A DNA stretch of 64,000 nucleotides from Hydrogenovibrio halophilus DSM 15072 (GTDB taxonomy: Bacteria > Pseudomonadota > Gammaproteobacteria > Thiomicrospirales > Thiomicrospiraceae), in the NCBI RefSeq assembly GCF_000384235.1, contig NZ_KB913033.1, forward strand, positions 434,001 to 498,000, in the 5' to 3' direction. Position 1 is the first letter of the stretch, and every line of letters starts with the position of its first letter. Positions 21,859 to 36,829 of this stretch are shown here, in pieces. The notes beneath the pieces are model-generated. The model saw only the letters and a program-made list of their open reading frames with translations. It was not told the origin of the DNA and ran no database searches. Position numbers and translations under genes: made by a program.

Positions 21859-23058
21859 TCAGGCCGGGCTCACCGTCTGGGGTTCGGCCTTGAGCACCAA
21901 CAATGCCGCCAGCGCCACAAACAGCGCCGACACCAGCAAGGTCGCTTCCATGCCCGCCATCTGATAGACCCAGCCCGACAGAATGGTGCCGATCAAACGG
22001 CCACCGGCATTGGCCATGTAATAAAAGCCCACGTCTTTGGACGTGCCATCGGCGTCGGCATAAGACACAATCAGATACGAATGCACCGCCGAGTTGAGCG
22101 CAAACAGAATGCCAAAAATCACCAGGCCTGCCATCAAAACGGTCTGCGGTGACGCATCCAGCCACCACGCCATGGCCATCGGCACCAGCGCCAACGGCAG
22201 CGCCAGTTTCATCGCCGTATGCCGTGTCGGCATGGTTTTATTCGGGTTTCGTATCCCGGTCAATTTGGGCGCGGCGGCCTGCACCACCCCATAACCGATC
22301 ACCCACAATGCCATAAAGGTACCCACCTGTATGTGCGACCAGTCCAGCATCACTTGCAGAAACACCGGCAGGGCCACCACAAACCAGACATCGCGTGCGC
22401 CGAACAGGAAAAACCGGGCCGCCGACAGCCAGTTGATCGCCGCCGACTTGGAAAACACTTCCTGAAATTTGGGCTTGGTTTTGGCCCGGCCCATGGCCCC
22501 GTCCAGCAGAAACAGCGACAGAATCAGCGGCACCACAATGATCGCCACCAGCACATACAAAGCGCCAACAAACCCAAGCCAGGCCAACAGCGCCGCCCCC
22601 ACAAAAAAGCCCACGCCTTTGAGCGCGTTTTTGGAGCCGGTCAGCAACGCCACCCAGCGATAAAGCTGGCCGGAGGCCTCATCGGCCAGCGACTTGATCG
22701 CGCTTTTGGCCGACATTTTGTTCAGGTCCTTGGCGATGCCGGACAGGGCCTGCGCCGCCATCACATAGGCCACGCTCAGCATCTCGGCGGGCACGGTCAG
22801 CATCATCAGCGCCACCACCTGCAGGCCGAGTCCGATGTTCATGGTCACATTCAGCCCCAGGCGTGCGCCCAGATACCCGCCGACCAGATTGGTGACAATG
22901 CCGAAAAACTCGTAAAACAGAAACAGCATCGCAATTTCAATCGGGGTGTAACCCAACTGGTGAAAATGCAGCAGCACCAGCATCCGGATCGCGCCATCGG
23001 TAATGGTAAACGACCAGTAATTGAATGTGACCAGACCATACTGTTTCAGCGGATTCAT
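21859..23058 (-). CDS. arsJ: ArsJ, organoarsenical (1-arseno-3-phosphoglycerate) efflux MFS transporter
   Basis: This 399-residue protein has about twelve membrane helices and a start typical of ArsJ (QYGLVTFNYWSFTITDGAIRMLVLLHFHQLGYTP). IAKDLNKMSAKSAIKSL is another family-specific stretch. ArsJ exports the unstable arseno-sugar made when GAPDH uses arsenate in place of phosphate. The partner GAPDH gene lies directly upstream in the same operon, 31 bases away, which supports the call strongly. It is last of five minus-strand genes starting at 26082. Confidence 0.92.
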   Translation of the reverse strand: MNPLKQYGLVTFNYWSFTITDGAIRMLVLLHFHQLGYTPIEIAMLFLFYEFFGIVTNLVGGYLGARLGLNVTMNIGLGLQVVALMMLTVPAEMLSVAYVMAAQALSGIAKDLNKMSAKSAIKSLADEASGQLYRWVALLTGSKNALKGVGFFVGAALLAWLGFVGALYVLVAIIVVPLILSLFLLDGAMGRAKTKPKFQEVFSKSAAINWLSAARFFLFGARDVWFVVALPVFLQVMLDWSHIQVGTFMALWVIGYGVVQAAAPKLTGIRNPNKTMPTRHTAMKLALPLALVPMAMAWWLDASPQTVLMAGLVIFGILFALNSAVHSYLIVSYADADGTSKDVGFYYMANAGGRLIGTILSGWVYQMAGMEATLLVSALFVALAALLVLKAEPQTVSPA

Positions 23059-23089: not shown

Positions 23090-24100
23090 TCAGTTCGCGG
23101 CGTTGCCTTTTCCGGCTTTCAGCGCCAGATCCATCATCTGACGCACATAGCCTATTTCATTGTCGTACCAGGCGTACACCTTGACCTGGGTGTCGTTGAT
23201 CACCATGGTCGAAGGCGCATCAATCACACTTGAACGGCGCTCGCCTTCGAAATCCACCGACACCAACGGGCGTTCTTCAAAGCCCAGAATGCCTTTCAGT
23301 TCGCCTTCTGCCGCTTCCTTGAACAGGGCGTTCACTTCCTCGGCTGTGGTGGGACGCTCGACCTCCATCACCAGGTCGGTCAGGGACGCATTCATAAACG
23401 GCACACGCACCGCCAACCCATTCAAGCGCCCGGAAAGTTCGGGAAAAATGTCGGCAATCGCTTTGGCCGAACCAGTGGTGGTCGGAATCAACGACTCAAA
23501 ACTGGCGCGGGCCCGACGCAAATCCTTGTGGCCGTGATCGACCACTTTCTGGGTATTGGTCCGGTCATGCATGGTGGTAATGCTGCCATGCTTGATGCCG
23601 ATGTTTTCATGCAGCACCTTGATCACCGGGGCAATGCAATTGGTGGTGCAGGAGGCCGCCGACAGAATCGGGTCTTCGCCGGGCGTGAGGATGTGATCGT
23701 TCACCCCCATGATCACGTTTTTGACGCCTTCCTTGACCGGGGCCGCGACCACGACCTGCGCCACGCCCTGATCCAGATACGGCTGCAATGCGGCCCGCGT
23801 GCGAAATTCGCCGGTGGCTTCAATCACAATGTCCGCGCCCGACCAATCGGTGTCCGCGATGGCCTGATTGGAGGTATACGGAATCAGGCTGTCATTGATC
23901 ACGATATTGCGGCCATCGGTACCGGTTTCGTGATGCCAGCGCCCGTGCGCCGAGTCAAAATGCAGCAGATGCGCCGACCCCGCCGCATCGGTCGCGGTTT
24001 CATTGATGTGCACAAATTCCAACTCGGGCCAGTCAAAGGCCTCGCGCAAGGCCAGACGACCCATGCGCCCGAACCCGTTAATGGCGACTTTGATTTTCAT
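23090..24100 (-). CDS. gapdh: ArsJ-associated glyceraldehyde-3-phosphate dehydrogenase
   Basis: This 336-residue GAPDH has the NAD-binding INGFGRMGR near the N-terminus, the catalytic Cys in [17 protein letters not shown]-type phosphate loops and the C-terminal [16 protein letters not shown]. With arsenate it would make 1-arseno-3-phosphoglycerate, the substrate of ArsJ. The start at 24100 has AGGAGCG upstream; the longer frame to 24163 runs into the preceding gene. It starts two bases after the upstream stop. It may also work in ordinary glycolysis or the Calvin cycle, but the context argues for arsenate resistance. Confidence 0.92.
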
Positions 24101-24102
24101 GG

Positions 24103-24798
24103 TCACGCTCCTGCTTTGTCTGAGGATTGTTTTTCCGATGTTCCGGGCGCATCCGACAGCCATTGTTCGATCTGGGCCACACTGGGCATGCCACCGGAAT
24201 GCACCACCGTATCGTCAATGACCACACCCGGTGTCGCGGTCACGCCGAAGCTGGCAATCTCGGCCACGTCTTCCACTTTCTGCACCGACACTTGAGCGCC
24301 CATTTTGCCAGCCGTTTCTTCAATGCGTGTGACCGTATTGTGACATGTCTTACACCCGGTCCCGAGCACCTGAACCACCAGGCCTGGTGATTTTTCACTG
24401 TCTCCGCCACAACAGCCAGCACTGGACGGAGCCGAATCAGAACAACAGCCAGACGATTCGCGTTTTTCTTCTTCGTCACCACCGCAACAGGCGCTGGCTT
24501 TGGCGTTTTCATCGGCGCTTCCATCGATATTTGCTTCCGATTTCGGCGTCGCCTTTTGCGGCGCAGGGGCTGTCCCGCAGCTGCCACCGGGACAGCACTC
24601 ACCGCTTTTGGACAATTTGCCAATCAATTCCGCCGGGCACCAGCCGGTAAACGTGGCCTGAAACCCCATCAACGCGGGCAACACCGCCAGCCACAACCAG
24701 TTCGCCGACATCAAATCCGTCTGTCCTGAGAACTGTGCCAGTGCGATGCCGATCAGAATCAGCCCTGTCATCAGACGTACCATTAAATTGCCTTTCAT
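24103..24798 (-). CDS. DUF2892 membrane module fused through a Cys-rich linker to a thioredoxin-fold domain
   Basis: This 231-residue protein has three parts. Residues 1-60 form a DUF2892 membrane hairpin ([26 protein letters not shown]). Residues about 65-140 form a low-complexity linker packed with Cys pairs ([24 protein letters not shown]), more than ten Cys in all. Residues about 143-215 form a small thioredoxin/glutaredoxin-like domain ([15 protein letters not shown] with CKTC active site; [20 protein letters not shown] with cis-Pro loop). Position in the ars operon suggests the Cys cluster binds arsenite or feeds a dithiol relay; that is inference. The linker contains an exact dispersed palindrome. 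It overlaps the upstream gene by 4 bases. Confidence 0.82.
24377..24388. repeat. ACCAGGCCTGGT palindrome, exact, inside the DUF2892-thioredoxin gene
   Basis: The symmetry extends to 14 bases (CACCAGGCCTGGTG). It encodes Ser-Pro-Gly-Leu-Val exactly where the linker meets the thioredoxin domain. Confidence 0.95.
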
Positions 24799-25100
24799 TT
24801 TTCACTCTCCTTTGAGGGGTCATTGTCTGTTTTTTCATGGGGGGGCCGGGTCGCATCGCAGGCCTCGCTGTCACACACGACACCACACGCCACACATTCG
24901 CCGCGCGCGTTTTTGAACATGGGGCAAAAGCCGGTAAACGTGGCCTGAATCGCATTGATCGCCATCGCAATCATCAGCCACAAAAAACTGAGCCGGGTCA
25001 AATCCACCTGACCCATAAAATGCGACACCGCCAGCAACACCAACATCATGCCAGCAAAATAACGCAAAGGCTTATTGCCCTTCACCACAATCTGATTCAT
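24795..25100 (-). CDS. DUF2892 membrane protein with a Cys-rich tail
   Basis: This 101-residue protein has two membrane segments (LRYFAGMMLVLLAVSHFMGQ, LSFLWLMIAMAINAIQATFTGF) followed by CPMFKNARGECVACGVVCDSEACDATRPP, which has six Cys, then an acidic tail. The IQATFTGFCP stretch matches [10 protein letters not shown] in the next gene, so the pair looks like a tandem duplication of the module. The last codons overlap the next start (ATGA). Probably part of the arsenic-responsive operon. Confidence 0.82.
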   Translation of the reverse strand: MNQIVVKGNKPLRYFAGMMLVLLAVSHFMGQVDLTRLSFLWLMIAMAINAIQATFTGFCPMFKNARGECVACGVVCDSEACDATRPPHEKTDNDPSKESEK

Positions 25101-25110
25101 TGATCGTTCC

Positions 25111-26082
25111 TCACAAAGTTAACCAGTTAAACCCATACCCGACCAGTATAAACGCCACGGTTAAGACGCCCACAAACAACGCCAGCGCCGGCCAGCGAAT
25201 CACTTTGCGCAAAATCAGCAGTTCCGGCAATGAGAGCGCGGCAATGCTCATCATCAACGCCAGACTGGTGCCAATGGGCACGCCTTTGGCCAGCATCGCC
25301 TCAATCACCGGGATCACGCCCACCGCATTGGAATACAAAGGCACGCCCAGCAACACCGCCACCGGCACACTCCACCAGCTGGCCGCATCGGCCAGATAGG
25401 TGCTGACCCAGGCTTCGGGCACAAACCCGTGAAAGGCCGCGCCCAGACCGATCCCGATCAACACCCAGTGCCAGATGCGTTTGACGATCACCATCACTTC
25501 CTGCCAGGCAAAGGCATGACGGGCTCTGAAGCCACCCGTCTGCGCCTGGACTTCGGCCTGTTGACGTCGCTTGATGTCCCACACATAGGCTTCGACCCAG
25601 CGTTCCGGTTTGAACCATTCGATCACCATGGATCCCACGTAAGCGACCACCAGCCCGGCCAGCACATACAGCAACGCAATTTCCCAGCCCAGAATCCCGA
25701 TCAGCAACACCACCGCCACTTCATTGATCATGGGGCTGGCGATCAGAAAGGCAAACGTAATCCCCACCGGAATCCGCGCTTCCACAAACCCGATAAACAG
25801 CGGCACGGACGAACAGGAACAAAACGGCGTCACCGACCCCAAAGTAATTGCCAGAGACCGTGCCTGCCATTTGGGTCGCCCCGCCACCACCTGACGGACT
25901 TTCTCGGTGGACACAAACGCGCGCAGCAACCCCATCAGATAAATCACAATGACCAGCAGCGCAAAAATCTTGGCCACATCCATCACAAAGAATTGCACCG
26001 CCGCGCCCAGCTGGGAGTCGGGGGACAATCCCAGAAGCGTGAAAGCGACCCAGTTGCCCAACTCATCAAATACGGAAAACAT
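25111..26082 (-). CDS. ArsP-like permease (COG0701/DUF318)
   Basis: This 323-residue membrane protein has about eight to ten helices. TPFCSCSSVPLFIGF carries the paired Cys motif of the family, ASPMINEVAVVLL follows, and the second half repeats the fold (GVPLYSNAVGVIPVIEAML). Family members include ArsP, an exporter of trivalent organoarsenicals; others are uncharacterised permeases, and the substrate here is not certain. The start 26082 has an AAGGAG RBS; a frame to 26109 lacks one. First gene of the operon, divergent from arsR. Confidence 0.85.
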   Translation of the reverse strand: MFSVFDELGNWVAFTLLGLSPDSQLGAAVQFFVMDVAKIFALLVIVIYLMGLLRAFVSTEKVRQVVAGRPKWQARSLAITLGSVTPFCSCSSVPLFIGFVEARIPVGITFAFLIASPMINEVAVVLLIGILGWEIALLYVLAGLVVAYVGSMVIEWFKPERWVEAYVWDIKRRQQAEVQAQTGGFRARHAFAWQEVMVIVKRIWHWVLIGIGLGAAFHGFVPEAWVSTYLADAASWWSVPVAVLLGVPLYSNAVGVIPVIEAMLAKGVPIGTSLALMMSIAALSLPELLILRKVIRWPALALFVGVLTVAFILVGYGFNWLTL

Positions 26083-26119: not shown

Positions 26120-26137
26120 TATCTGCTTATGCAGATA
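26120..26137. promoter_or_regulatory. Putative ArsR operator in the arsR / permease divergent promoter
   Basis: TATCTGCTTATGCAGATA is an 18-base, nearly perfect inverted repeat. Its reverse complement TATCTGCATAAGCAGATA differs at one base from the site at 30408-30425. It lies between possible -35 and -10 elements (TTTGTT, TATAAA) for the minus-strand operon. Confidence 0.75.
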
Positions 26138-26222
26138 CTAACAAAGTTTTTTTGCCCTGACCATCTTTTTTCATGCCCGGTTTACGGTAAAATAAGCGTT
26201 TTTGAAATCACTGGTTCCGTTT

Positions 26223-26570
26223 ATGTCACTGGATGCTCTGGCCCAAACATTCAAAGCCCTTTCCGAGCCGCTTCGACTGCGCATAGTGCACCTGCTGATG
26301 CAACGCGACAGTCTGTGTGTGTGCGACCTGATGAGCATTCTGGATCAGGGGCAGAGCACCATTTCACGGCACCTGACTTATCTGAAAAACGCCGGTCTGG
26401 TTCATCACTGGCGTGAAGGAACCTGGATGCACTATGCGCTGGTCCGGGACGGCCTGGTGCCCCTGCGCCCGGACGATTTGCAACAATGCCTGCAGCAGTT
26501 GTCCGACCTGGAAGCCGACCGGGAGGCGCTGGCACACTACGAGCAGACACCCCGTCAGTGCGCACGCTGA
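26223..26570 (+). CDS. arsR: ArsR-family As(III)-responsive repressor
   Basis: This 115-residue winged-helix protein carries DSLCVCDLMSIL, the CxC arsenite-sensing motif (ELCVCDL type), at the start of the recognition region, then STISRHLTYLKNAGLVHHWREG as the recognition helix and wing. When As(III) binds the thiols the repressor leaves DNA. ATG 26223 gives the family N-terminus (MSLDALAQTFKALSEPLRLRI); TTG 26202 in the same frame is possible, and neither has a good RBS. It is divergent from the ars operon with the palindromic operator between them. Confidence 0.93.
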   Translation: MSLDALAQTFKALSEPLRLRIVHLLMQRDSLCVCDLMSILDQGQSTISRHLTYLKNAGLVHHWREGTWMHYALVRDGLVPLRPDDLQQCLQQLSDLEADREALAHYEQTPRQCAR

Positions 26571-26600
26571 AGCACAGAAGATTTTTGATTAAAAAGCGCG

Positions 26601-26606
26601 TATAAT
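26601..26606 (+). promoter_or_regulatory. Possible -10 element of mqo
   Basis: A consensus TATAAT lies 61 bases before the mqo start in an AT-rich stretch. No matching -35 at 17 bases is convincing. Confidence 0.4.
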
Positions 26607-26667
26607 TAAACGCTTATATTTTTTGAACCTTTGTGCATAAGGTTCGCAGATTGCAAGGCAGACACTC

Positions 26668-28011
26668 ATGGAAAATCGCGTATTTGATGTCGTCATTGTT
26701 GGCGGCGGGGTCACTGGGACCGCGCTGGCCTATACGCTGGCCAAATACACCAACATCAAATCCACCGCCATTCTGGAAAAATACGGGTCGCTGGCACCGT
26801 TGAACTCCAATGCGCGCAGCAACAGCCAGACGCTGCACTGCGGCGACATCGAAACCAACTACACGCTGGAAAAAGCCAAATCGGTCAAACACACCGCCAA
26901 CATGCTGGTGCGTTATGCCGAGCAAACCAGCAAAAACGACTTTCTGTACAAATACCCGAAAATGATTCTGGCCGTGGGCGAAGACGAGTGCGAACGGCTG
27001 GAAAAGCGCCACCATGAATTTGCCGAAGCCTTCCCCTATATGCAACTGTGGGACGCCGCGAAAATCGCCGAAGTCGAACCCAATGTGGCACTCAAGGACG
27101 GCCAGATGCGCCCGGAAAAAATTCTGGCCAGCGGCTGCACCGATGAGTACTCGGCGGTCAATTACGGCACCCTGTGCAAATCCTTTATTGAATCCGCACG
27201 CAAGACCGGCAAGGACGTGCGCGTCTCACTCAGCTCCAAAGTCGATCGCATTCTCAAATTTGACGACCACTACGAGCTGCAGACCGCCCACGGCACCTAC
27301 ATGGCCAAATTTGTGGTGGTCGCCGCCGGCGCGCACAGCCTGCTGCTGGCGCACCAGATGGGCCACGGGCTCAATCTGTCGACCCTGCCAATGGCCGGGA
27401 GCTTTTATTTTGCCCCGCAAATGCTCAATGGCAAAGTCTATACCATGCAGAACGACAAACTGCCCTTTGCCGCCCTGCACGGCGACCCGGACCTGACCGA
27501 ACCGGGCAAAACCCGTCTGGGTCCGACGGCCCTGGCATTGCCCAAGCTGGAACGCTACACAGGCGGCACCTATCTGGACTTCTGGCGCACCCTGAAACTG
27601 GATCGCAAGGTTCTGAAAGTCTTCTGGGATCTGATGAAGGATGGCACCATTCGCAATTACATTCTGCGCAACATGCTGTTTGAAATCCCCTGGCTCAACA
27701 AGAAGCTGTTCGTCAAAGACGCCCGCAAAATTCTGCCAGGCTTGACCACCGACGAACTCACCTACGCCCAGGGTTATGGTGGCGTACGCCCGCAGGTGAT
27801 TGACAAGACCACCCGCGAACTGAAACTGGGCGAAGCCAGCATTGTGCCCGACAACGACAATGTGATATTCAATATGACCCCGTCGCCCGGGGCGACCACC
27901 TGTCTGGGCAATGCCTATCGCGATGCGCAAATCATTTGTGAACGTCTGGGCATGGAACTCAAGCGGGACGAGCTGATCCACGACCTGCTTGATGGTGAAG
28001 ACCTGTCCTGA
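26668..28011 (+). CDS. mqo: FAD-dependent malate:quinone oxidoreductase, Helicobacter-like type
   Basis: This 447-residue flavoprotein has the N-terminal dinucleotide-binding motif VVIVGGGVTGTALAYTLAKY, followed by LNSNARSNSQTLHCGDIETNYTLEKA and, near the C-terminus, YGGVRPQVIDK and SPGATTCLGNAYRDA. These features match the shorter Mqo of epsilonproteobacteria and Thiomicrospira relatives, which oxidise malate and pass electrons to quinone in place of NAD-malate dehydrogenase. The closest alternatives are L-2-hydroxyglutarate oxidase-like enzymes. AAGGC lies upstream of ATG 26668. It appears monocistronic. Confidence 0.8.
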   Translation: MENRVFDVVIVGGGVTGTALAYTLAKYTNIKSTAILEKYGSLAPLNSNARSNSQTLHCGDIETNYTLEKAKSVKHTANMLVRYAEQTSKNDFLYKYPKMILAVGEDECERLEKRHHEFAEAFPYMQLWDAAKIAEVEPNVALKDGQMRPEKILASGCTDEYSAVNYGTLCKSFIESARKTGKDVRVSLSSKVDRILKFDDHYELQTAHGTYMAKFVVVAAGAHSLLLAHQMGHGLNLSTLPMAGSFYFAPQMLNGKVYTMQNDKLPFAALHGDPDLTEPGKTRLGPTALALPKLERYTGGTYLDFWRTLKLDRKVLKVFWDLMKDGTIRNYILRNMLFEIPWLNKKLFVKDARKILPGLTTDELTYAQGYGGVRPQVIDKTTRELKLGEASIVPDNDNVIFNMTPSPGATTCLGNAYRDAQIICERLGMELKRDELIHDLLDGEDLS

Positions 28012-28209
28012 TCGGGCAGGCAATAACCATTCAACTCAGTCAGAAATCACGCCCGGCCCGACCTGGTGTGATAAAATGACTCTCTCAATTTTTTGGCGTC
28101 AAGACCGTTTTTGCGCCCAAGCTCACAAAGCGTCCTTTGCTTAACATCGGTATCCGTTCCCCACAGGGGCATACGAACCTCACAGGACGCAAAAGTCGAA
28201 GGAAATTGC

Positions 28210-29160
28210 ATGACCAAGCACATGCCCGATATCGCCTGCCAGCCGCATAAAAACCCACAAGGCAAACTCAACTGGGTTGGAATGAGTGGCATCGAACTGC
28301 CCGTTCAAATCCAGCAAACACCGAACACACACCTCACACTTTCGTCTCAGGTTCAGGCGTATGTCAGCCTGGAAGACCCGTTAAGCAAAGGCATTCACAT
28401 GTCTCGGCTCTACCTGATTCTGGACGAGGAAGGCGCCAAAGAACCCCTGACCCCCAAGCGCTTGCAGCACCTTCTGCAAGCCTTTATTTCTTCGCATGAG
28501 GGGCTCAGTCACAACGCATTTCTGGAATTTCGCTTTGACTATTACGAGCGTCGCCGTTCACTCAAATCCGACAACGCCGGGTGGAAGCATTACCCCTGCA
28601 CCCTGCGCGGAGAAATCCGCGACGGGCAGTTTGAGTGCGAAGTCAGCCTCACCGTGCCCTACTCCTCCACCTGCCCCTGCTCGGCCGCCCTGTCACGTCA
28701 ACTGATTCAGGAAGCGTTTGAGCAGCGGTTTCAAAATGGCGAACTGGACTTTGACGCCGTGCATGAATGGCTGGGCACGTCCGAGGGCATCAGCGCAACG
28801 CCGCACAGCCAGCGTTCCTACGCCCAGGTCAAACTCAAGGTCAGCGCCCAGCACAAACTGAGCCTTTCCAGCGTGATCAATCAAATCGAAGACAGCCTGA
28901 AAACGCCGGTCCAGGCCACCGTCAAACGTGCAGACGAACAGGAATTCGCCCGGCTCAATGCCAGCAATCTGATGTTCTGCGAAGACGCCGCGCGCCGTCT
29001 GCAAAAAACCCTGGACACTCAGCCCGATTTCCTCGATTTCTGGGTACGCGTCAATCATCTGGAAAGTCTGCACCCGCATGATGCCGTCGCCATTGTCACC
29101 AAAGACATCGAAAATGGCTATTCAGACGAACCCAACTTCATGGACCGGTTTGAATACTGA
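28210..29160 (+). CDS. folE2: GTP cyclohydrolase FolE2 (type IB)
   Basis: This 316-residue enzyme makes dihydroneopterin triphosphate from GTP, the first step of folate and related pterin synthesis. The active-site Cys lies in TVPYSSTCPCSAALSRQL; GMSGIELPVQI opens the fold and AQVKLKV follows. FolE2 is the zinc-independent form that many bacteria use under zinc limitation. I see no clear Zur box in 28012-28209. The start 28210 has AAGGA 8 bases upstream and the family start (MPDIACQPHKNPQGKLNWVGM follows a short MTKH). Confidence 0.95.
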   Translation: MTKHMPDIACQPHKNPQGKLNWVGMSGIELPVQIQQTPNTHLTLSSQVQAYVSLEDPLSKGIHMSRLYLILDEEGAKEPLTPKRLQHLLQAFISSHEGLSHNAFLEFRFDYYERRRSLKSDNAGWKHYPCTLRGEIRDGQFECEVSLTVPYSSTCPCSAALSRQLIQEAFEQRFQNGELDFDAVHEWLGTSEGISATPHSQRSYAQVKLKVSAQHKLSLSSVINQIEDSLKTPVQATVKRADEQEFARLNASNLMFCEDAARRLQKTLDTQPDFLDFWVRVNHLESLHPHDAVAIVTKDIENGYSDEPNFMDRFEY

Positions 29161-29189
29161 TCGGTTCTAAACCAACCCGTTTCACTGCC

Positions 29190-29217
29190 GGAAATTGCAA
29201 TGCCTTTTGCAATTTCC
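29190..29217. repeat. Perfect 11-base inverted repeat downstream of folE2
   Basis: GGAAATTGCAA-TGCCTT-TTGCAATTTCC can form a strong hairpin 30 bases past the folE2 stop but lacks a T run. A second small hairpin (TCCCA-GCC-TGGGA, 29222-29234) follows. It may be a transcript-end stabiliser or a regulator site for the rhodanese gene. Confidence 0.6.
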
Positions 29218-29379
29218 AACATCCCAGCCTGGGACCATTCCGACCCTTTGTTTTTTTCACTGATTTTTCAATCACTTGAAAACCGCTGTCTTTGGCACAC
29301 ATCTTCCTATGTTTCCATGAAAATTTAAGGAAACCGCGTTTTTTGCAGCAACGAAAAACGCCAATCAAAAGGATACGCC

Positions 29380-30294
29380 ATGAAAGCATGTTTCAAAGGG
29401 CTTTTTACTCTGGTATTAATCGCATTCAGTCTGCAGGCCCACGCCCAGGGACGGGATTTTCTGGTCAACTCCGACTGGCTGGCTGAAAACATGGACGACG
29501 TCAAGGTCCTGGAAGTACGGTACCATCCGCACCGCTATCTGACGGTCGGCCACATCCCCGGTGCGATACAGGTCAAGCGCTTCTCCGACCTGGGCGACAA
29601 CCAGGCCAACCCTCTGATGCGTCTGCCGCCCAAGGCACAGTTTCAGAACACCCTGCGTCAATGGGGCCTTGAATATGATGACACCATTGTCATTTATGAC
29701 GATTCGGCCACTGCACTGGCCTCGCGCGTGTATTTTCTGCTGGATTATTACGGCTTGGACATGAACAAAGTCAAGTTACTGGATGGCGGCATTCGCGAAT
29801 GGAGTGTGTTCGAGGAAACCACCCAGACCGCGACCCAACCCTCACCCAGCAAGATCGTTCTCAAGGACCCCGATCCCAAACTGTCTGTGGAGTGGACAGC
29901 CGTCTACAACGATGTCGTCAGTCAGCGTCGGGACAACGTCACTTTGCTCGATGCCCGACCAACCGACATGTACACAGGGGAAGTCATCAAACATTCCATT
30001 ATGGGTGGTCACATCCCTGGGGCGGTCAATGTGGTCAGCCTGAACGGCATCACCGGCCAGAACTGGAAATCGGCGGAAGACCTTGCCGCGATGTATGCCG
30101 ACATTCCCAAAAGCGACACTGTGTATGTGTACTGTCACGACGGCTTTCGCATGAGTCTGGCCTATATGCAGCTCAAAAGCCTGGGTTATGAGGACGTGCG
30201 ACTTTACAATGGGGGCTGGTCACACTGGGGCAACTCTTTGACTCTGCCGGTCATTGATGGCAAAACGCCCTATTCCGGCGATTTCGATCTCTGA
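29380..30294 (+). CDS. Periplasmic tandem-rhodanese thiosulfate sulfurtransferase
   Basis: This 304-residue protein begins with a signal peptide (MKACFKGLFTLVLIAFSLQAHA). Two rhodanese domains follow: an inactive N-terminal one (about 30-150, YDDSATALASRV without the catalytic Cys) and an active C-terminal one (about 170-285) with the catalytic loop VYVYCHDGFRMSLAY. It should move sulfane sulfur from thiosulfate to an acceptor outside the cytoplasm, fitting a sulfur oxidiser. AAAAGGA lies 7 bases before ATG 29380. A terminator follows at 30317. Confidence 0.92.
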   Translation: MKACFKGLFTLVLIAFSLQAHAQGRDFLVNSDWLAENMDDVKVLEVRYHPHRYLTVGHIPGAIQVKRFSDLGDNQANPLMRLPPKAQFQNTLRQWGLEYDDTIVIYDDSATALASRVYFLLDYYGLDMNKVKLLDGGIREWSVFEETTQTATQPSPSKIVLKDPDPKLSVEWTAVYNDVVSQRRDNVTLLDARPTDMYTGEVIKHSIMGGHIPGAVNVVSLNGITGQNWKSAEDLAAMYADIPKSDTVYVYCHDGFRMSLAYMQLKSLGYEDVRLYNGGWSHWGNSLTLPVIDGKTPYSGDFDL

Positions 30295-30316
30295 TTTCGA
30301 GTGCGGTTTTCGCCTG

Positions 30317-30351
30317 ATGCCTGCCTGGCCATGTGGTCAGGCATTTTTTTT
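30317..30351 (+). terminator. Rho-independent terminator of the rhodanese gene
   Basis: ATGCCTG pairs with CAGGCAT around an inner CC/GG stem, and eight T follow. It starts 23 bases after the stop. Confidence 0.9.
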
Positions 30352-30375
30352 GCACGTTTGTGGCGCAATTTTCGC

Positions 30376-30405
30376 TTGAGATCATGAAACAAGCAGAGTT
30401 ATACT
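30376..30405 (+). promoter_or_regulatory. Sigma-70 promoter of the MBL-fold gene
   Basis: TTGAGA (30376-30381) and TATACT (30400-30405) are 18 bases apart, each 5 of 6 to consensus. Transcription would start within the operator that follows. Confidence 0.65.
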
Positions 30406-30407
30406 TA

Positions 30408-30425
30408 TATCTGCATAAACAGATA
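30408..30425 (+). promoter_or_regulatory. Second copy of the putative ArsR operator
   Basis: TATCTGCATAAACAGATA matches the arsR-region site (reverse complement) at 17 of 18 bases. It covers the expected transcription start, the classical place for a repressor site. Confidence 0.7.
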
Positions 30426-30446: not shown

Positions 30447-31382
30447 ATGAAATCAGTCTTACTCTTTCTCCTCACATTGGGCTTGAGCGTCCAAGCCTGG
30501 GCTGGTCAGGGCAAGGACCTGTTTGCCGCCGAAAAAGTCACCGACGGCATTTACGCCTATGTAGGCCCGATTGATGACCGTTCGCCCGAAAATCTGGGTC
30601 TGAACAACAACATCGGCTTGATCGACACCTCCGAGGGCTGGGTACTGGTGGACGCTGGTGGCGGTGACGCCGCCGCCAGAAAAATCGAAGCCATGGCCAA
30701 AGCGGTCAAGGACCAGCCCATCACCGCCGTGATCAACCTTGGCTCACAGGATCACCGCTGGCTGGGCAATGACTACTTTTCTCGCCAGGGCGCGACCATT
30801 TACGCTTACGAAGGCACCGTCGACACCCAGAAGCGCATGTATGACAATGTCACCAACCGCATGTTTTCAGCGGTTCCGGCCAACAAAGGCGCCAAGCAGA
30901 AAACCGCAGACAAGGTTTTGCAGGGGGACAAAAACACCCTGACCATTGGCGGCGTGGAAATGCAGTTGAACTTCTATGGCGACGCCCACTTTCCGGGCGA
31001 TGCGGCCCTGTGGCTGCCCGGCAAAAAGGTGCTGTTCACCGGCGACATTGTCTATCTGGACAGAATGCTGGGCGTTCATCCCTGGTCCGACCCAATGGCC
31101 TGGCACGAAGCCTATCAGGCCATGCGTGATCTGCCAGCGTCATACATTGTACCGGGGCACGGACAAGTGGCCGAAGGCTGGGACCGTGTGGACCGTGATA
31201 CCGGGGATTACCTGAAAAAACTGACCCGGAAAATGTATGACGCCGCCGATGCCTTTATGGGCGTGGGGTCCGCCGTCAGTGACAACAAGAATTGGCCCGA
31301 ATTCAAACACCTGAAACACTACGATTCCTGGCATTCCACCAACCTGAACCGCACCTACCTGAAACTGGAATCGAGCATGTGA
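30447..31382 (+). CDS. Periplasmic metallo-beta-lactamase-fold protein with incomplete metal site
   Basis: This 311-residue protein has a signal peptide (MKSVLLFLLTLGLSVQAWA). The MBL fold is clear: VTDGIYAYVG, NIGLIDTSEGWVLVDAGG, YGDAHFPGDAALWLPGKKVLFTGDIVY and YIVPGHGQV. The canonical HxHxDH metal motif reads LGSQDH (in INLGSQDHRWLGN), so the first two His are missing while DH and the later His and Asp remain. It may bind one metal or act non-catalytically. The nearest families are the SoxH-like and quinoprotein-relay MBL proteins of sulfur oxidisers. The start 30447 has AAGGA upstream. Promoter and operator placement suggest arsenic-responsive control. Confidence 0.82.
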   Translation: MKSVLLFLLTLGLSVQAWAGQGKDLFAAEKVTDGIYAYVGPIDDRSPENLGLNNNIGLIDTSEGWVLVDAGGGDAAARKIEAMAKAVKDQPITAVINLGSQDHRWLGNDYFSRQGATIYAYEGTVDTQKRMYDNVTNRMFSAVPANKGAKQKTADKVLQGDKNTLTIGGVEMQLNFYGDAHFPGDAALWLPGKKVLFTGDIVYLDRMLGVHPWSDPMAWHEAYQAMRDLPASYIVPGHGQVAEGWDRVDRDTGDYLKKLTRKMYDAADAFMGVGSAVSDNKNWPEFKHLKHYDSWHSTNLNRTYLKLESSM

Positions 31383-31416: not shown

Positions 31417-31441
31417 AAAAAAGCCTCTCTGAGGCTTTTTC
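31417..31441 (+). terminator. Terminator between the MBL-fold gene and the response regulator
   Basis: AAAAAAGCCTC-TCT-GAGGCTTTTT is symmetrical and may work in both directions for these convergent genes. Confidence 0.88.
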
Positions 31442-31538: not shown

Positions 31539-32906
31539 CTAAGATTGATAGGTTTGCAGCTTTCGATACAGGGTGGACGCATCGATCCCCAGTTTGTCTG
31601 CCGCCAGGCGCTTATTGCCTTCACACACGGTCAGCACATGCTCAATCCAGAAACGTTCCATGTCCGCCAGGGTGGCGTCTTCCGGCAAGGCCTGTTCGCC
31701 GGTTTCGGTCAGCAACTGCGGCACCTGAATGCTCAGCAGTTCCTTGGGCAGATGATGCATTTCGATTTCCGCCCCCTTGGCCAGCACCACCGCGCGCTGA
31801 ATGATGTTTTCCAGCTCCCGGATATTGCCCGGCCAGTGATAACGCTTGAGCGCTTCAACCACGCGAGGCGACAGCTCCCGCACCGATTTGCCGAACTTTT
31901 TGGCGTATTGATGCACAAACGCACGCGCCAGCGCTTCGATGTCGGCCTCACGGTGACGCAAGGCCGGCAATTCCACCGGAAACACATGAATGCGATAATA
32001 CAGATCCGAACGGAATTGACCTTTTTCCACCAGCGCTTTCAACGACTGGTTGCTGGCAAACAATAAGCGGACATCCACCTGAATCGCGCTTTGGCCGCCG
32101 ACCCGCACCAACGTCTGATCCTGCAGAAAATGCAACAGCTTGGCCTGCACGTCGGGCTGAGTGGAATTGATTTCGTCCAGCAACAGGGTGCCGCCATGGG
32201 CCAGTTCCAACAGTCCGGCTTTGCGCTGGGTCGCGCCGGTAAAAGCCCCCTTCTCATAGCCAAACAATTCCGATTCGATCAGGTTCTCAGGCACCGCCGC
32301 ACAGTTGAGCGAAAAAAACGGGCCTTGCGCCCGGTGACTGATCTGATGAATCTGACGTGCCAGCACGCCTTTACCCACCCCGGTTTCACCGTTGATCAGC
32401 ACCGGCACATCCAGCGGTGCGGCCTGTGCCACTTCCGCCATCACCGTCTGCATGGTTTTGGATTGGGATGCCACCGGTGCCGATTCGGTCTCCAGCTGCG
32501 TCAGCCGCGCTTCCAGTTGTTGAAGCTTGTGACGCTGAGCCAGCTGCTGGTGCACCCGTTCCAGTAAATTCGCCACCTGACGGGTTTCAAAGGGCTTGGT
32601 GATCAGGTCGTAGAGACCCAGTTTGAACCCTTCAATCGCATCTTCCATGGACGCATAGCCGGTGATCATCACCACCAGCACCTCTTCGTTCAGAGTTTTG
32701 ACCTGATCCAGAAGTGTCAGGCCTGAGCCGTCCGGCAGACGCAGATCGGTCAGCAATACCTCCGGCAGAAAGCGCTGACATTCCTTCAGGCCGTCTTGCG
32801 CACTCAAGCTCACCCGCGTATCAAACCCGGCGGTTCTGGCCAGTTCGGCCAGCAACTCCGCCATGTCCTCATCGTCTTCAATGATCAGCAGATTCAGTGT
32901 TTTCAT
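31539..32906 (-). CDS. NtrC-family sigma-54 response regulator
   Basis: This 455-residue protein has a receiver domain (1-120) with the acidic pair EDD, phospho-acceptor Asp in LLTDLRLPDGSG and Lys in LITKPFE. An AAA+ domain (about 145-380) has Walker A GETGVGKG, the sigma-54 contact loop GAFTGA and Walker B GGTLLLDEI. A Fis-type HTH ends the protein (CEGNKRLAADKLGIDASTLYRKL). It would activate sigma-54 promoters when phosphorylated by the kinase encoded just upstream, whose gene overlaps it by 29 bases. Target genes are not evident; I found no good sigma-54 site near the adjacent porin. Confidence 0.95.
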   Translation of the reverse strand: MKTLNLLIIEDDEDMAELLAELARTAGFDTRVSLSAQDGLKECQRFLPEVLLTDLRLPDGSGLTLLDQVKTLNEEVLVVMITGYASMEDAIEGFKLGLYDLITKPFETRQVANLLERVHQQLAQRHKLQQLEARLTQLETESAPVASQSKTMQTVMAEVAQAAPLDVPVLINGETGVGKGVLARQIHQISHRAQGPFFSLNCAAVPENLIESELFGYEKGAFTGATQRKAGLLELAHGGTLLLDEINSTQPDVQAKLLHFLQDQTLVRVGGQSAIQVDVRLLFASNQSLKALVEKGQFRSDLYYRIHVFPVELPALRHREADIEALARAFVHQYAKKFGKSVRELSPRVVEALKRYHWPGNIRELENIIQRAVVLAKGAEIEMHHLPKELLSIQVPQLLTETGEQALPEDATLADMERFWIEHVLTVCEGNKRLAADKLGIDASTLYRKLQTYQS

Positions 32907-34374
32907 AAGCGTTCAGTTCAATCCGAAATTGGGTGCCTTCGGTCACGCTGTCATCCAGCGTGATCCGGGCCTGCATTTTTTCCAGTAAGGTGCGGGTCAG
33001 ATACAACCCCAGACCGGTCCCGGCATTGTCATTGCGAAAGCTGCCGGCTTCTTTGGTGGTGAAAAAAGGTTCAAACACCTGATCGCGCTTTTCGGCCTCG
33101 ATCCCTTTGCCGTTATCACAGACCCACAAATACCAGGCCTGGTGGTTTTCTGCTGGCGTCAGAGACAGCGTCACCCGGCTGGCACCGGCCTCGGCGCTGT
33201 TGCTGATCAGATTATACAGCACTTGCTCCAGCGCGGAAGGATCGCCCTTGACCCAGGCGGTTGCCTCGGCGTCAAACACAATCTCCACCGGCGCATCGCG
33301 TTTGAGCACCGGTCGAATCATCGTCAGAATGCCGTCGATCAATTGATTCAGATTCACGGCCTGCGCCACCACTCTGGGTTCCCGCGCCGCCGAGAGCAGA
33401 TCCTTGACCGAGGCGGCGCATTGCTTGGCCTGCTTTTCGATGGTCTGCAAACGCTTTTGCATCGCATCGTCCCGGGTTTGCTGAGTCGCCATCTGGGCAT
33501 AGCCGATGATGTTGGCCAGTGGCGTGTTGAGATTATGCGCCAGACCGGCCGCCAATTGCCCGATGGCCACCATGCGTTGGTTCTGACACAGGTTTTGCGT
33601 CGCTTTCTGGCGAAACTGGTGCGCCTCCTGCAGGGAATCAATGTGGTTCTGCAACGCCACCTGCAAATCGAAAATGGCGTAGTTGAGCACCTGCAGTTCC
33701 TGAGGCAGATTCTGCCGAACTGGCACCGGCTGTTGAAACAGGGCAGGCATGTCGTTCAGTCGTTCGGACAGATCCCGCACCGGGGCCAGAAGATGCCGAT
33801 CCAGCAACCGCCGTACGATCACAAACACCAACATCAGCAACAGCGCAAACAACACCAGCCCAATCCCAAACAGTTGCATAAATGTGGTCCGAATCGATTG
33901 TCGGGAAAACCCCAGGGTGACCTCCCCCAACGACTGCCCGAAAAAGGCCATCGGCGCGGTGTAGTGCAAATGGGTCTTGAAAGGGTCACTGCCGGTCTCG
34001 CGCTGCTTCTGCACCTCGCTCAAGATCTCGCCCTGGGCATTGACCACCTGAATGTGATGCAAGTCTTGGGTCTGCGCCAGCAGATCACTGGTAATGCGGT
34101 CAATCACGCTGTATTCCTGCAACATCACCGCATCCTTGGCCACGGTCGCGACTTGCGAGGCCAGTGCTTTGGCTTTCTGCTCCATCGCCTGTTCCAAGGT
34201 GTGGGAAATAAACGCATAACCGGCCAGACTCAATGCCAGCATCATGCCCAGCAGCGCCGAAGCCAGATACAGATTCAAACGCCCGGCCAGGGTTCTGGGG
34301 CGTAAGCGCTCAAACCACCCCCTTCTATGACGGAAGAAGGTGGGGAACCCGGATTTTTCAGTGGCCACTGCCAT
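32878..34374 (-). CDS. Membrane sensor histidine kinase
   Basis: This 498-residue kinase has two membrane helices (about 30-58 and 165-190; LFGIGLVLFALLLMLVFVIV) enclosing a periplasmic sensor segment of about 105 residues. The dimerisation/phospho-acceptor motif is GLAHNLNTPLANIIGYAQ with its His. The ATPase core carries NLISNSAEAG, DNGKGI, FEPFFTTK and AGTGLGLYL. It forms a pair with the overlapping NtrC-type regulator downstream. The signal is unknown. An exact palindrome copy at 33132-33143 encodes His-Gln-Ala-Trp within the ATPase domain. Confidence 0.94.
   Translation of the reverse strand: MAVATEKSGFPTFFRHRRGWFERLRPRTLAGRLNLYLASALLGMMLALSLAGYAFISHTLEQAMEQKAKALASQVATVAKDAVMLQEYSVIDRITSDLLAQTQDLHHIQVVNAQGEILSEVQKQRETGSDPFKTHLHYTAPMAFFGQSLGEVTLGFSRQSIRTTFMQLFGIGLVLFALLLMLVFVIVRRLLDRHLLAPVRDLSERLNDMPALFQQPVPVRQNLPQELQVLNYAIFDLQVALQNHIDSLQEAHQFRQKATQNLCQNQRMVAIGQLAAGLAHNLNTPLANIIGYAQMATQQTRDDAMQKRLQTIEKQAKQCAASVKDLLSAAREPRVVAQAVNLNQLIDGILTMIRPVLKRDAPVEIVFDAEATAWVKGDPSALEQVLYNLISNSAEAGASRVTLSLTPAENHQAWYLWVCDNGKGIEAEKRDQVFEPFFTTKEAGSFRNDNAGTGLGLYLTRTLLEKMQARITLDDSVTEGTQFRIELNAYENTESADH
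33132..33143. repeat. ACCAGGCCTGGT palindrome, exact, inside the sensor kinase gene
   Basis: Read in the Gln-Ala-Trp frame, unlike the other exact coding copies, and placed between the N box and the DNGKG box. Confidence 0.95.
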
Positions 34375-34469
34375 GTTGTTTTCCTTTCATCCGTCAAGTC
34401 AATCGGCGTATTCCAAAGCTCGCCCAAAAGCAAGCGAACTTTAGAATAGACCCCAACAGGGATTCGGTC

Positions 34470-34497
34470 AAAAAAAAGCCAGTGCAAGACTGGCTTT
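34470..34497 (-). terminator. Rho-independent terminator of the porin gene
   Basis: On the minus strand AAAGCCAGT-CTTGC-ACTGGCTTT is followed by a run of T. A further hairpin, AGCGCCG...CGGCGCT near 34534-34557, lies closer to the stop. Confidence 0.9.
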
Positions 34498-34575
34498 CAA
34501 AATTCACAAAGATAAAGAGAACGAATACATTCCAGCGCCGCTCACAACAACGGCGCTTTGGATCAGGTTTGCGAA

Positions 34576-35688
34576 TTAATAACCAAACTTGGCATCAATC
34601 CCCACTGTGAACGCCATGGCTTCGGCATCCCCACGCTCATACTGGTTCCAGCCCGCAATCAAAGCCGACTTATCAGTCAACTTGTACTTGGCACCCAGTG
34701 CATAATGCAGAGAGTCATCATCCTGGCTGTAAGCATTGTCATCACTCGCCTTGTTTGTACCAATGCTGGCTGTCAGTAGACCGTACTTGCCAACTTTTTG
34801 CGAGACAACGGCAAACATATTCTCACCAAGGTTAATGTCAGTCACATCTTCGTAGAAGCCAGCCAGTGTGGTACCGGTTTTGAACTTGTATTGCGCACTG
34901 GTTGAGTAAGCCGTGCCATTTTTGGCCTTGCCATTATTAACACCCGCTGCCCCGGTTACACCAAGATCATTTTCACTGTCCAACGTAACGGTATCCGCTG
35001 TCAGACGAAGTCCGCCGTTGAAATACTTCACCCCAAAACCATGCGCGCTGCCACCTGCCATGTCTTTCAACTTACCGGAGTTATGCAGGCTGTCCTGGCT
35101 CTCATCGGCCAACACCGAGTAATGGGCATTGACCTGAAATCCGTTCATTTTGGGCGAGGTGTAATCCACCGCATAGTTGAAGTAATTGGAGTTCAAGTTG
35201 GACGCGCCCTGCTGCCCTTTGTCACGCGCTTGCAGAATGTGATCCGTCCAAGGATCGATCTTGGTATAACTGGATTTATACCCGACCGTAAAACGCCCCA
35301 TACGAATGCGACCATATTGTTTATTGTCCAGTCCCGCATAAGCGTCACGCATGTACAAAGCACCATCACCTGTATCGCCTTCGCCAGCGGCGTCCGAGTT
35401 ATTGCCCACAGCGGTGTATTGAACATCGGCTTTGTAAATCAGCTTTGTGTTTTCAAGCGTGGTGTCCAACGAACCGGAAAAACCAAAACGAGAGGCGTTG
35501 CTTTTCAACTCTGTGCCTTCCATGCGTTCCAGCACATTATCCTTTCCTGCCAGAGGGGTGATATCGACCATATCGGCTGACACATTGATTTGACCGTGAA
35601 CCGACAGTTTGTCTTCGGCCATCACAGGGTTCATTGCCAGGCCACAAGCAAGTGCCACTGGGGTCAGTTTTGCAAAGGTATGTTTCAT
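34576..35688 (-). CDS. Gram-negative trimeric-type porin
   Basis: This 370-residue outer-membrane protein has a signal peptide (MKHTFAKLTPVALACGLAMNPVMA) followed by KLSVHGQINVSADMVD, the usual first strand of the 16-strand general porins. SRFGFSGSLDTTLENTKLIYKADVQY, YAGLDNKQYGRIRMGR and the last strand AMAFTVGIDAKFGY, with a C-terminal aromatic, complete the pattern. The start 35688 has AGAGGA upstream; the frame to 35781 is unsupported. Base composition is less GC-rich than the neighbours, as for many highly expressed surface proteins. It has its own terminator. Confidence 0.92.
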   Translation of the reverse strand: MKHTFAKLTPVALACGLAMNPVMAEDKLSVHGQINVSADMVDITPLAGKDNVLERMEGTELKSNASRFGFSGSLDTTLENTKLIYKADVQYTAVGNNSDAAGEGDTGDGALYMRDAYAGLDNKQYGRIRMGRFTVGYKSSYTKIDPWTDHILQARDKGQQGASNLNSNYFNYAVDYTSPKMNGFQVNAHYSVLADESQDSLHNSGKLKDMAGGSAHGFGVKYFNGGLRLTADTVTLDSENDLGVTGAAGVNNGKAKNGTAYSTSAQYKFKTGTTLAGFYEDVTDINLGENMFAVVSQKVGKYGLLTASIGTNKASDDNAYSQDDDSLHYALGAKYKLTDKSALIAGWNQYERGDAEAMAFTVGIDAKFGY

Positions 35689-35965
35689 AAGGTTTCCTCT
35701 TATCCTCTTTTGTTTTCGTTCGTGGTCGCGCCAGTCGCACACCACAAGACCGAGTACAGAGAGGAATAAGCGTGCCAACACCTAACTTACTGTTTTTTAT
35801 AGTATTACAGATAAACGAACTCTTGCAGGCTGCGAACTCTTTGCAATCTGCAATGCATTTCAGAACTTCATGATATAAGCGTTTTTTAGCACCTGGCTGC
35901 TGGATTTTATCCGCCCCTGGCCAGAAAGCACTAAAATGACCCCATTTTGTGGCAGGAGAGATGGT

Positions 35966-36829
35966 GTGCACTCAGGAATGCGAATGCTACTGGCGGGATT
36001 GCTTGGCTGGATGCTGATCAGCGGCTGCGACCGTCCTGACCAGCCGGACAAGATGGCCGAAACAAGCGAGGTCGAGCCGCTGGTGCTGGCGGTGCAGCCG
36101 TTTGATCTGCCCTCCAGTGTGCAACAGCATTTTGCCCCCCTGCAGAGCTATCTGTCAGACGTGCTCAAACGCCCGGTCAAACTCTATATCGCAACCAGCT
36201 ATGAAGACCAGATTCAAAAGATACTCAATAACAAGGCCGACCTGGCCTATATGGGTCCGACCATTTACGTCAAAACCCAGAAAATTCAGAAACGGGCCCA
36301 AAAACCCCTCAAACCGATCGTCACCGAACACCCCTATCGCGGCGTGGTGGTGGTGCATGAACAGTCGGACATTGAAACGCTGTCACAACTGCGACACAAA
36401 CGCCTGGCACTGGGGGCCTATTTTTCCTACGCCGGGCATTTTGCTGCCAGAGAGGCGCTGAATCAGGCCGGTGTGCGGTTGGCAGACTTGTCTCTGTACA
36501 GTTTTCTGCAACGCCATCATCGCGCGGCCATGTCCGTGGTCTATCGCCACTTTGATGCGGCGGCCACCACCGAAGGCATTGCCCGACGCATGATTTCACA
36601 AGGGCACCCATTGCGCATCATTCACAGCACGAAACCGCTCGCGCCCATCGTGCTCGCAGCCAACCATCACCTGTCCGATGCATTGGTGGAAACACTTCAA
36701 ATTGCCTTGCTCAACCCGAACTTTGATCAGGAATTGACGCTGTCCCTGTTCAGCCCCCAGGGCTACCAGGCTTATCAGGGACAGCACTACCGCGAAGTCG
36801 AACGGGTCATGACCCATTTTGAACGCTGA
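35966..36829 (+). CDS. PhnD-like periplasmic substrate-binding lipoprotein
   Basis: This protein of about 287 residues has a lipoprotein signal (LLAGLLGWMLISGC, lipid Cys near residue 21). The body matches the phosphate/phosphite/phosphonate-binding family: LAVQPFDLPSSVQQHFAPLQSYLSDVLKRPV, ADLAYMGPTIYV and RGVVVVHEQSDIETLSQLRHKRLALG. No ABC permease or ATPase gene is adjacent, so it may act as a sensor subunit or orphan binding protein. The start is uncertain: GTG 35966 has AGGAG upstream; ATG 35984 is an alternative. Confidence 0.78.
   Translation: MHSGMRMLLAGLLGWMLISGCDRPDQPDKMAETSEVEPLVLAVQPFDLPSSVQQHFAPLQSYLSDVLKRPVKLYIATSYEDQIQKILNNKADLAYMGPTIYVKTQKIQKRAQKPLKPIVTEHPYRGVVVVHEQSDIETLSQLRHKRLALGAYFSYAGHFAAREALNQAGVRLADLSLYSFLQRHHRAAMSVVYRHFDAAATTEGIARRMISQGHPLRIIHSTKPLAPIVLAANHHLSDALVETLQIALLNPNFDQELTLSLFSPQGYQAYQGQHYREVERVMTHFER

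Follow-up and report, generated by a model that had tools for sequence, protein, structure and literature searches.

Which regulator governs a gene that lies 4 kb from an arsenic resistance operon and yet carries a copy of that operon's operator? The question is raised by a stretch of 64 kb from the single-contig genome of Hydrogenovibrio halophilus DSM 15072 (positions 434001-498000 of 2,356,686 bases; hereafter the window). It holds an ars operon, the divergent repressor gene arsR with a palindrome between the two (operator 1), and a second copy of the palindrome (operator 2) before a separate gene for a secreted protein of the metallo-β-lactamase (MBL) fold. Repressors of the ArsR/SmtB family have dyad operators in ars promoters, and a first-pass annotation of the window had used the repeat to predict a place for the MBL gene in the arsenic regulon or, given in brackets, in a thiol-stress regulon. 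Judged from the sequence comparisons described here, the palindrome is a conserved ars operator of the family, and it is highly likely that the local ArsR counts the MBL gene among its targets.

The annotation had reported that TATCTGCATAAGCAGATA, the reverse complement of operator 1 (TATCTGCTTATGCAGATA), is identical to operator 2 (TATCTGCATAAACAGATA) at 17 of 18 positions, which was confirmed. With up to three mismatches the pattern is found at these two places only in the window (four rows, counting both strands), a number reached in none of 100 dinucleotide shuffles (mean 0.01, largest 1). A scan of the whole genome, which the annotation had proposed, revealed TATCTG-N6-CAGATA at the two operators only, compared to 0 for the reversed pattern that served as control in all consensus scans. 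Allowing up to three mismatches to TATCTGCNTANGCAGATA gave ten places in the genome, namely the operators at 0 and 1 mismatches and eight others all at 3 (control 4). For a more sensitive comparison a weight matrix was made from 14 different arsR-promoter sites of relatives, chosen by eye; none is from the window or from Thiomicrospira sp. WB1, the closest named relative in the collection, whose MBL protein (L001) is 93% identical over residues 16-311. In the window this matrix scored the operators at 24.2 and 23.7 bits and the next best site at 8.0 bits. The WB1 operators deviate from those of the window yet fit the matrix, with 25.6 bits for TATCTGCTTATACGGATA at arsR/arsP and 28.0 bits for TATCCGCATAAGCGGATA at the MBL gene. 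Three positions differ between the MBL sites of the two genomes, two of them symmetrically across the half-sites, and the 6+6 palindrome is perfect in both. Such a symmetric change fits selection for the dyad better than decay, as modest evidence from two genomes. By the shuffles, the genome-wide scans, the matrix and the family-wide counts given below, a chance repeat is ruled out.

Conservation of the operator was followed in a sample of 62 genomes of the family and within the genus; samples of 11 genus genomes and of 369 genomes of the class (Gammaproteobacteria) served for comparisons of genes. Eighteen arsR promoter regions including that of WB1 were inspected, and 16 of the 17 others contain by eye a dyad of the same form, with the consensus TATCCG-N6-CGGATA and TA at the centre. 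The dyad is weaker in four of the loci (L108, L109, L112 and L127), and the sites of L131 and L132, identical to that of L129, were dropped from the matrix training. In related loci totalling 626,010 bases, training sites included, the matrix found 26 matches of at least 18 bits, compared to 0 in six simulated sets, and 31 of at least 14 bits, compared to a mean of 0.7 in six first-order Markov simulations. Twelve of the 15 matches that are not training sites precede arsR, arsP, acr3 or MBL units. The exact consensus TATCYGNNTANNCRGATA is found at 24 sites in 22 of the family genomes (control 1), counting the two of the window and G004:204195. The annotation had named a motif widespread without relation to arsenic genes as the outcome that would speak against the link; instead, 23 of these 24 sites precede an arsR, arsP, acr3 or MBL gene, and within the genus this holds for the exact sites at a rate of 10 out of 10. 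A widespread non-arsenic motif is ruled out for the exact consensus, with specificity being lost at one mismatch. In split ars loci the operator recurs before the parts, both before arsP units that include the MBL gene (L101 11177, L047 7490, L104 10434) and before arsP (L130 2948). Weaker sites were also detected upstream of two MBL genes that have no ars gene within 8 kb (15.4 bits at L102, 14.4 bits at L043). In genus g6 an operator in front of acr3 comes immediately after genes for MBL, kinase and regulator (L118 12179, L120 12211, L121 5576). Another operator-like site, with 21.2 bits at L106 17299, is flanked by a PhnD-like gene on one side and the gene of a small rhodanese on the other, and no ars gene was found near it.

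The surroundings of the MBL genes point in the same direction. Linkage to ars genes was scored by tblastn within 8 kb with five queries (ArsR, ArsP, ArsE, ACR3, ArsJ), a test that misses other ars types; matches of the glyceraldehyde-3-phosphate dehydrogenase (GAPDH) were excluded from the counts, and some loci are truncated by contig ends. Relatives of the MBL protein (E up to 1e-50) were found at 33 places in 31 of the 62 family genomes, and at 24 of these loci at least one query matched near the MBL gene, at 19 at least two kinds. By tblastn with proteins of the window, nine loci share the order arsR / MBL-arsP-arsE-GAPDH-arsJ, with the MBL gene leading the operon divergent from arsR (L042, L045, L108, L109, L110, L111, L112, L113, L114). 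Others contain arsP-(arsE)-MBL units (L047, L101, L104) or have the MBL gene between arsE and GAPDH-arsJ (L122, L123). In the class sample 33 of the 369 genomes carry a relative, at 34 places, three of which belong to the family and were tallied with it. Among the 31 remaining loci an ars gene lies near the MBL gene at 11, spread over ten families, and at nine of these at least two kinds were detected; examples are ArsR-MBL-ACR3 (L187) and ArsJ-GAPDH-ArsE-ArsP-MBL-ArsR (L182).

A maximum-likelihood tree of 64 MBL proteins, picked by similarity to the window protein, separates a group of 50 from 14 others with a support of 100/100. In the group of 50 the gene is accompanied by ars genes in 34 cases, only by a sensor set (PhnD-like protein, porin, kinase, regulator) in six and by neither in ten, and one of the other 14 has an ArsR match. 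The ars label changes 13 times on this tree, compared to 21.5 times in shuffles, and none of 500 shuffles is as low. Besides WB1, the nearest kin of the window protein is that of L101, where the MBL gene is last in an arsP-arsE-MBL unit behind an operator. This arrangement and the ars linkage suggest that the MBL gene is probably an old ars gene, which now stands alone in the lineage of the window and has kept its operator.

A promoter of the form TTGAGA-18-TATACT had been proposed directly before operator 2. Its elements are indeed present (TTGAGA at 30376-30381, 18 nt, TATACT at 30400-30405), but the number of promoter-like sites found by scanning the region is no better than that of shuffles (3 vs 3.2). 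Better support for the putative promoter than the scan is its conservation in WB1, where TATACT recurs, preceded at 18 nt by TTGATC and followed after 2 bp by the operator. Because the −10 box is conserved and the operator follows it after 2 bp, operator 2 would cover the expected start of the MBL transcript. Terminator-like sites in the region are fewer than expected by chance (5 vs 7.7 in shuffles). Hairpins were nevertheless located on both sides of the MBL gene, which is probably monocistronic and transcribed alone.

The candidate regulator is a clear member of the ArsR/SmtB family (PF01022, 58.9 bits, cut-off 22; NF033788, 89.2 bits, cut-off 55). Its residues C31, V32, C33, Q43, S44, S47, R48, H49 and L50 do not vary among all 18 ArsR sequences aligned, the window's included, and the CVC motif is presumably the site at which ArsR binds trivalent arsenic, As(III). 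With this motif present, and with 36.1 bits for the window protein in the BigR model compared to 155 required, the bracketed thiol-stress alternative of the annotation becomes less likely. HTH_5 was located at four places in the genome, and the CxC motif is found only in the arsR product. One of the other ArsR-family proteins (G000:C1:976852-976983, L008) has by eye a rhodanese-like C-terminal part and is without CxC.

The operators, their conservation, the linkage to ars genes and the active-site pattern discussed below are read directly from the DNA; binding and derepression we infer. In the absence of arsenite, ArsR on operator 1 would repress its own gene as well as the arsP-YgaP-arsE-GAPDH-arsJ operon, and on operator 2 it would prevent initiation of the monocistronic MBL message. 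Upon binding of As(III) at the CVC motif the repressor would leave both palindromes, as is to be expected from what is known of the family and from the conservation of the motif. The secreted MBL protein would then be made alongside the efflux proteins and could act on arsenic outside the membrane. The predicted place of the MBL gene in the arsenic regulon is supported by the family-wide operator, by the linkage within and outside the family, by the conservation in WB1 and by the position of the exact sites. With a second operator here and MBL genes among ars genes in many relatives, it is very probable that the MBL protein contributes to the arsenic defence of bacteria as a component not described so far.

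Several observations weigh against membership in the regulon or limit the evidence for it. Nine of the 14 training sites of the matrix come from promoters common to arsR and MBL. A match of at least 14 bits precedes the MBL transcription unit at 16 of the 33 family loci, and nine of these 16 are training sites; at the other 17, including the seven of genus g6 and the five of g2, no match of this strength was found before the unit. In the arsR promoter of L128 no site is visible, two matrix matches lie at non-ars genes (L106 17299 before the small rhodanese gene, L121 2799 before a helix-turn-helix (HTH) gene) and one, with 17.7 bits at L112 1335, falls within a coding frame. The exception among the exact sites (L234 760, genome G040) is located about 280 bp before a frame resembling a SulP-type transporter. 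With up to one mismatch, 25 sites occur in the genus compared to 9 in the control; three of the 15 one-mismatch sites are at located ars loci (G005, G007 35142, G009 C58) and 12 are not, the surroundings being inspected for three of the latter (L141, L142, L146). Outside the family, 20 of the 31 MBL loci have no ars gene by the five-query test, and L189 and L197 were scored as linked from an ArsR match alone. Six of the family loci lacking an ars gene contain at least two genes of the PhnD-like/porin/kinase/regulator set, to which the MBL gene may answer there, and three contain neither. The neighbours of twelve MBL genes, ten ars-less ones outside the family and two within it, revealed no common theme by eye.

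Could operator 2 serve a different regulator, either another ArsR-family protein or a sensor of thiols or persulfides, so that the MBL gene would belong to a sulfur-stress regulon? The closest named relatives, Thiomicrospira and Thiomicrorhabdus, are sulfur oxidisers, a rhodanese gene lies immediately upstream of the MBL gene, and the MBL gene of an outgroup locus (L203) adjoins a frame that is TusA-like by eye. There are also three further HTH_5 proteins in the genome, among them the one with the rhodanese-like part. Neither of the two operator sites of the genome is beside these three genes, however, and the operator is consequently missing from the promoters of all three. Moreover, the motif tracks arsR, arsP and acr3 promoters throughout the family, and the MBL gene itself occurs within ars operons. 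Control by another ArsR-family protein of this genome, with no operator near these genes and no CxC motif, is unlikely, and we consider a sulfur-stress regulator at operator 2 improbable overall.

The site might instead be a relic of an old ars operon that was moved by rearrangement and has no present use. In nine relatives the arsR operator is followed first by the MBL gene, and the site can thus have travelled with it. The symmetric half-site change between the window and WB1, the perfect 6+6 palindromes in both and the maintained −10 box and spacing are not what a relic would lead one to expect, and we regard this explanation as very unlikely. A role of the palindrome as an RNA structure or another cis element of the 5' leader was considered as well, as the MBL transcript is expected to begin there. 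In relatives its distance to the start codon varies and it is also found between divergent genes, both as expected for an operator, leaving the leader element barely conceivable. Binding of ArsR at operator 2 is the explanation that we prefer.

What the MBL protein would contribute can be approached from its sequence and predicted structure. It clearly belongs to the superfamily (PF00753, 61.3 bits, cut-off 22.7). A simple hydropathy test for a signal-like stretch was passed by 48 of the 64 aligned proteins, and several of the others may have start codons set too far in. The best NCBIfam matches are the SoxH-related models of a "quinoprotein relay system zinc metallohydrolase", TIGR04558 with 114.8 and TIGR04559 with 109.7 bits, but these scores are far under the cut-offs of 300 and 280 bits. 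In the AlphaFold model (mean predicted local distance difference test score, pLDDT, of 94.9) the nearest structures are 8d2z from Burkholderia cenocepacia, alkylsulfatases, chlorothalonil dehalogenase and CphA. The predicted fold is the same as in 8d2z, 6uxu (chlorothalonil dehalogenase) and 1x8i (the B2 carbapenemase CphA), with template-modelling (TM) scores by query length of 0.76, 0.78 and 0.62. Identity to these proteins is 20-23%, and a β-lactamase or dehalogenase function is unsupported. A β-lactamase identity was also rejected because the protein is below the cut-offs of all 25 NCBIfam families listed of the 30 matched and the first two motif histidines are gone.

Twelve residues are invariant in all 64 sequences (G99, Q101, D102, H103, W105, G107, N108, H181, D185, D200, R206 and H238, window numbering). 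The canonical HxHxDH motif was found in none; all have GxQDH, with T, I, L, V or S and S, G, A, V or I at the first two histidine positions. The remaining di-metal ligands D102, H103, H181, D200 and H238, which we take to be the equivalents of D and H of DH, H196, D221 and H263 in MBL numbering, are present in 64 of 64. With the first two histidines replaced, the second metal site seems to be the only complete one, which is also the case for CphA. The window protein contains no cysteine, nor do others in the alignment (40 of the 64, the window protein counted). This speaks against binding of As(III) by thiolates, and direct binding by MBL cysteines was discarded as a function. Most likely, we infer, the protein is a metallohydrolase of the periplasm that has a single complete metal site and whose substrate is an arsenical found outside the cytoplasmic membrane. 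That the substrate is bound to sulfur is a guess, made because the relatives are sulfur oxidisers, because rhodanese relatives occur near ars genes and because MBL-fold enzymes frequently act on thio-compounds. Going further, the secreted one-metal GxQDHxWxGN clade, whose genes neighbour ars genes in ten further families of the class, might as a whole be an undescribed arsenic-detoxification enzyme. Together with the secreted rhodanese of ars clusters it would process arsenic bound to sulfur, such as thioarsenates or adducts with thiols, on the outer side of the cytoplasmic membrane, a tentative proposal that we hold to be possible but rather doubtful.

Table 1. Features of the window discussed in the text (positions within the window)
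Feature	Position	Strand	Basis and remarks
ArsJ, organoarsenical efflux transporter of the major facilitator superfamily (MFS)	21859-23058	-	NF033734 over cut-off
ArsJ-associated glyceraldehyde-3-phosphate dehydrogenase	23090-24163	-	NF033735 over cut-off
YgaP-TM + ArsE-type thioredoxin protein	24103-24798	-	TIGR00412 over cut-off
Small YgaP-TM-like membrane protein encoded in the ars operon	24795-25100	-	
arsP-like permease (Pfam ArsP_1); opens the divergent ars operon	25111-26082	-	ATG start; profile match
ars operator 1, TATCTGCTTATGCAGATA	26120-26137	.	arsR/arsP intergenic; 37 bp to arsP ATG, 85 bp to arsR ATG
arsR, ArsR/SmtB repressor with CVC motif	26223-26570	+	ATG start; profile matches
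Secreted double-rhodanese protein	29380-30294	+	Relatives in ars clusters of other families
Terminator-like hairpin between rhodanese and MBL genes	30322-30343	+	Scan; stem kept in WB1
Sigma-70-like promoter of the MBL gene, TTGAGA-18-TATACT	30376-30405	+	WB1 shares the -10 box and the spacing
ars operator 2, TATCTGCATAAACAGATA	30408-30425	.	Over expected MBL transcription start; conserved in WB1
Secreted MBL-fold protein, GxQDHxWxGN clade	30447-31382	+	311 amino acids, N-terminal signal-like stretch, no cysteine
Terminator-like hairpin downstream of the MBL gene	31418-31440	+	Scan only

The ars operon itself (Table 1) contains at 24103-25100 two adjoining YgaP-TM-like proteins, one of which extends into a cysteine-rich linker and the ArsE thioredoxin domain. 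ACR3 was considered as the local efflux pump and ruled out by a profile search of the 11 genus genomes, none of which contains a match over the cut-off; two weak matches reached 39.7 and 38.2 of 282.8 bits. Arsenite efflux in the genus may accordingly rely on another pump, e.g. the permease of the ArsP_1 type; no search was made for ArsB.

To the right of arsR follow, in order, genes for a flavin adenine dinucleotide (FAD) oxidoreductase, folE2, the double-rhodanese protein and the MBL protein. Relatives of the rhodanese in the class (E up to 1e-60, 56-64% identical) are found near ars genes in seven of 12 other genomes; those of L220, L222, L225, L227 and L228, some of them on short contigs, are not near ars genes. 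As a target of the window ArsR the rhodanese gene was rejected, the matrix scan giving no operator ahead of it. Beside the MBL gene, at 31539-36829, are located a sigma-54 response regulator, a histidine kinase, a porin and a PhnD-like lipoprotein, and 14 of the 33 family loci have two or more of the four together with the MBL gene. A second SoxH-related MBL-fold protein is encoded at 39287-40384; it is under the cut-offs of all 22 matched NCBIfam families and barely over that of Pfam Lactamase_B.

To our knowledge, the known ars functions are efflux, reduction, methylation and the GAPDH/ArsJ pair, and a secreted metallohydrolase-like protein is unlike these. No description of an MBL component of ars systems was found in the open-licence PubMed Central (PMC) literature searched, which is not proof of its absence. 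With MBL genes near ars genes in several families, the role of a periplasmic MBL protein in arsenic resistance becomes a general question. The ars repertoire gains a candidate gene, and the exact operator makes the claim testable. ArsJ with GAPDH, as well as ArsP, are established ars components in a survey of ars-operon transporters (PMC4435449), in the accessible text of which the words "lactamase", "hydrolase" and "rhodanese" do not occur. AioX, ArxX and ArrX belong to three-component arsenic-sensing systems (PMC5908839). Similar to these, a PhnD-like binding protein, a histidine kinase and a sigma-54 regulator stand beside the MBL gene, and ArrX is among the solved relatives of the binding protein; unlike in these systems, PtxB (2.6e-12) and a phosphonate-binding protein (2.8e-12) match it slightly better than ArrX (1.3e-11).

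In its core the locus resembles typical ArsR/SmtB systems, with a CVC repressor divergent from an efflux operon and a dyad operator beside the promoter. It differs from them in the family's 18-bp dyad TATCYG-N6-CRGATA and in the second copy before a separate gene 4 kb off, and presents a case of a gene that stands apart from the operon with the repressor site retained. The closest parallel concerns the reach of the regulator: ArsR1 of Agrobacterium tumefaciens is reported to control a stimulon of wide functions beyond the ars operon, with several motifs (PMC7965956), and the word "lactamase" is absent from the main text of that article. As for ArsR1, the predicted control extends outside the repressor's own operon; here, in contrast, two sites only are found and the target is a gene that recurs in ars clusters. 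Thus, control by ArsR beyond the ars operon is already known, whereas an MBL component of the regulon, as predicted here, would be new.

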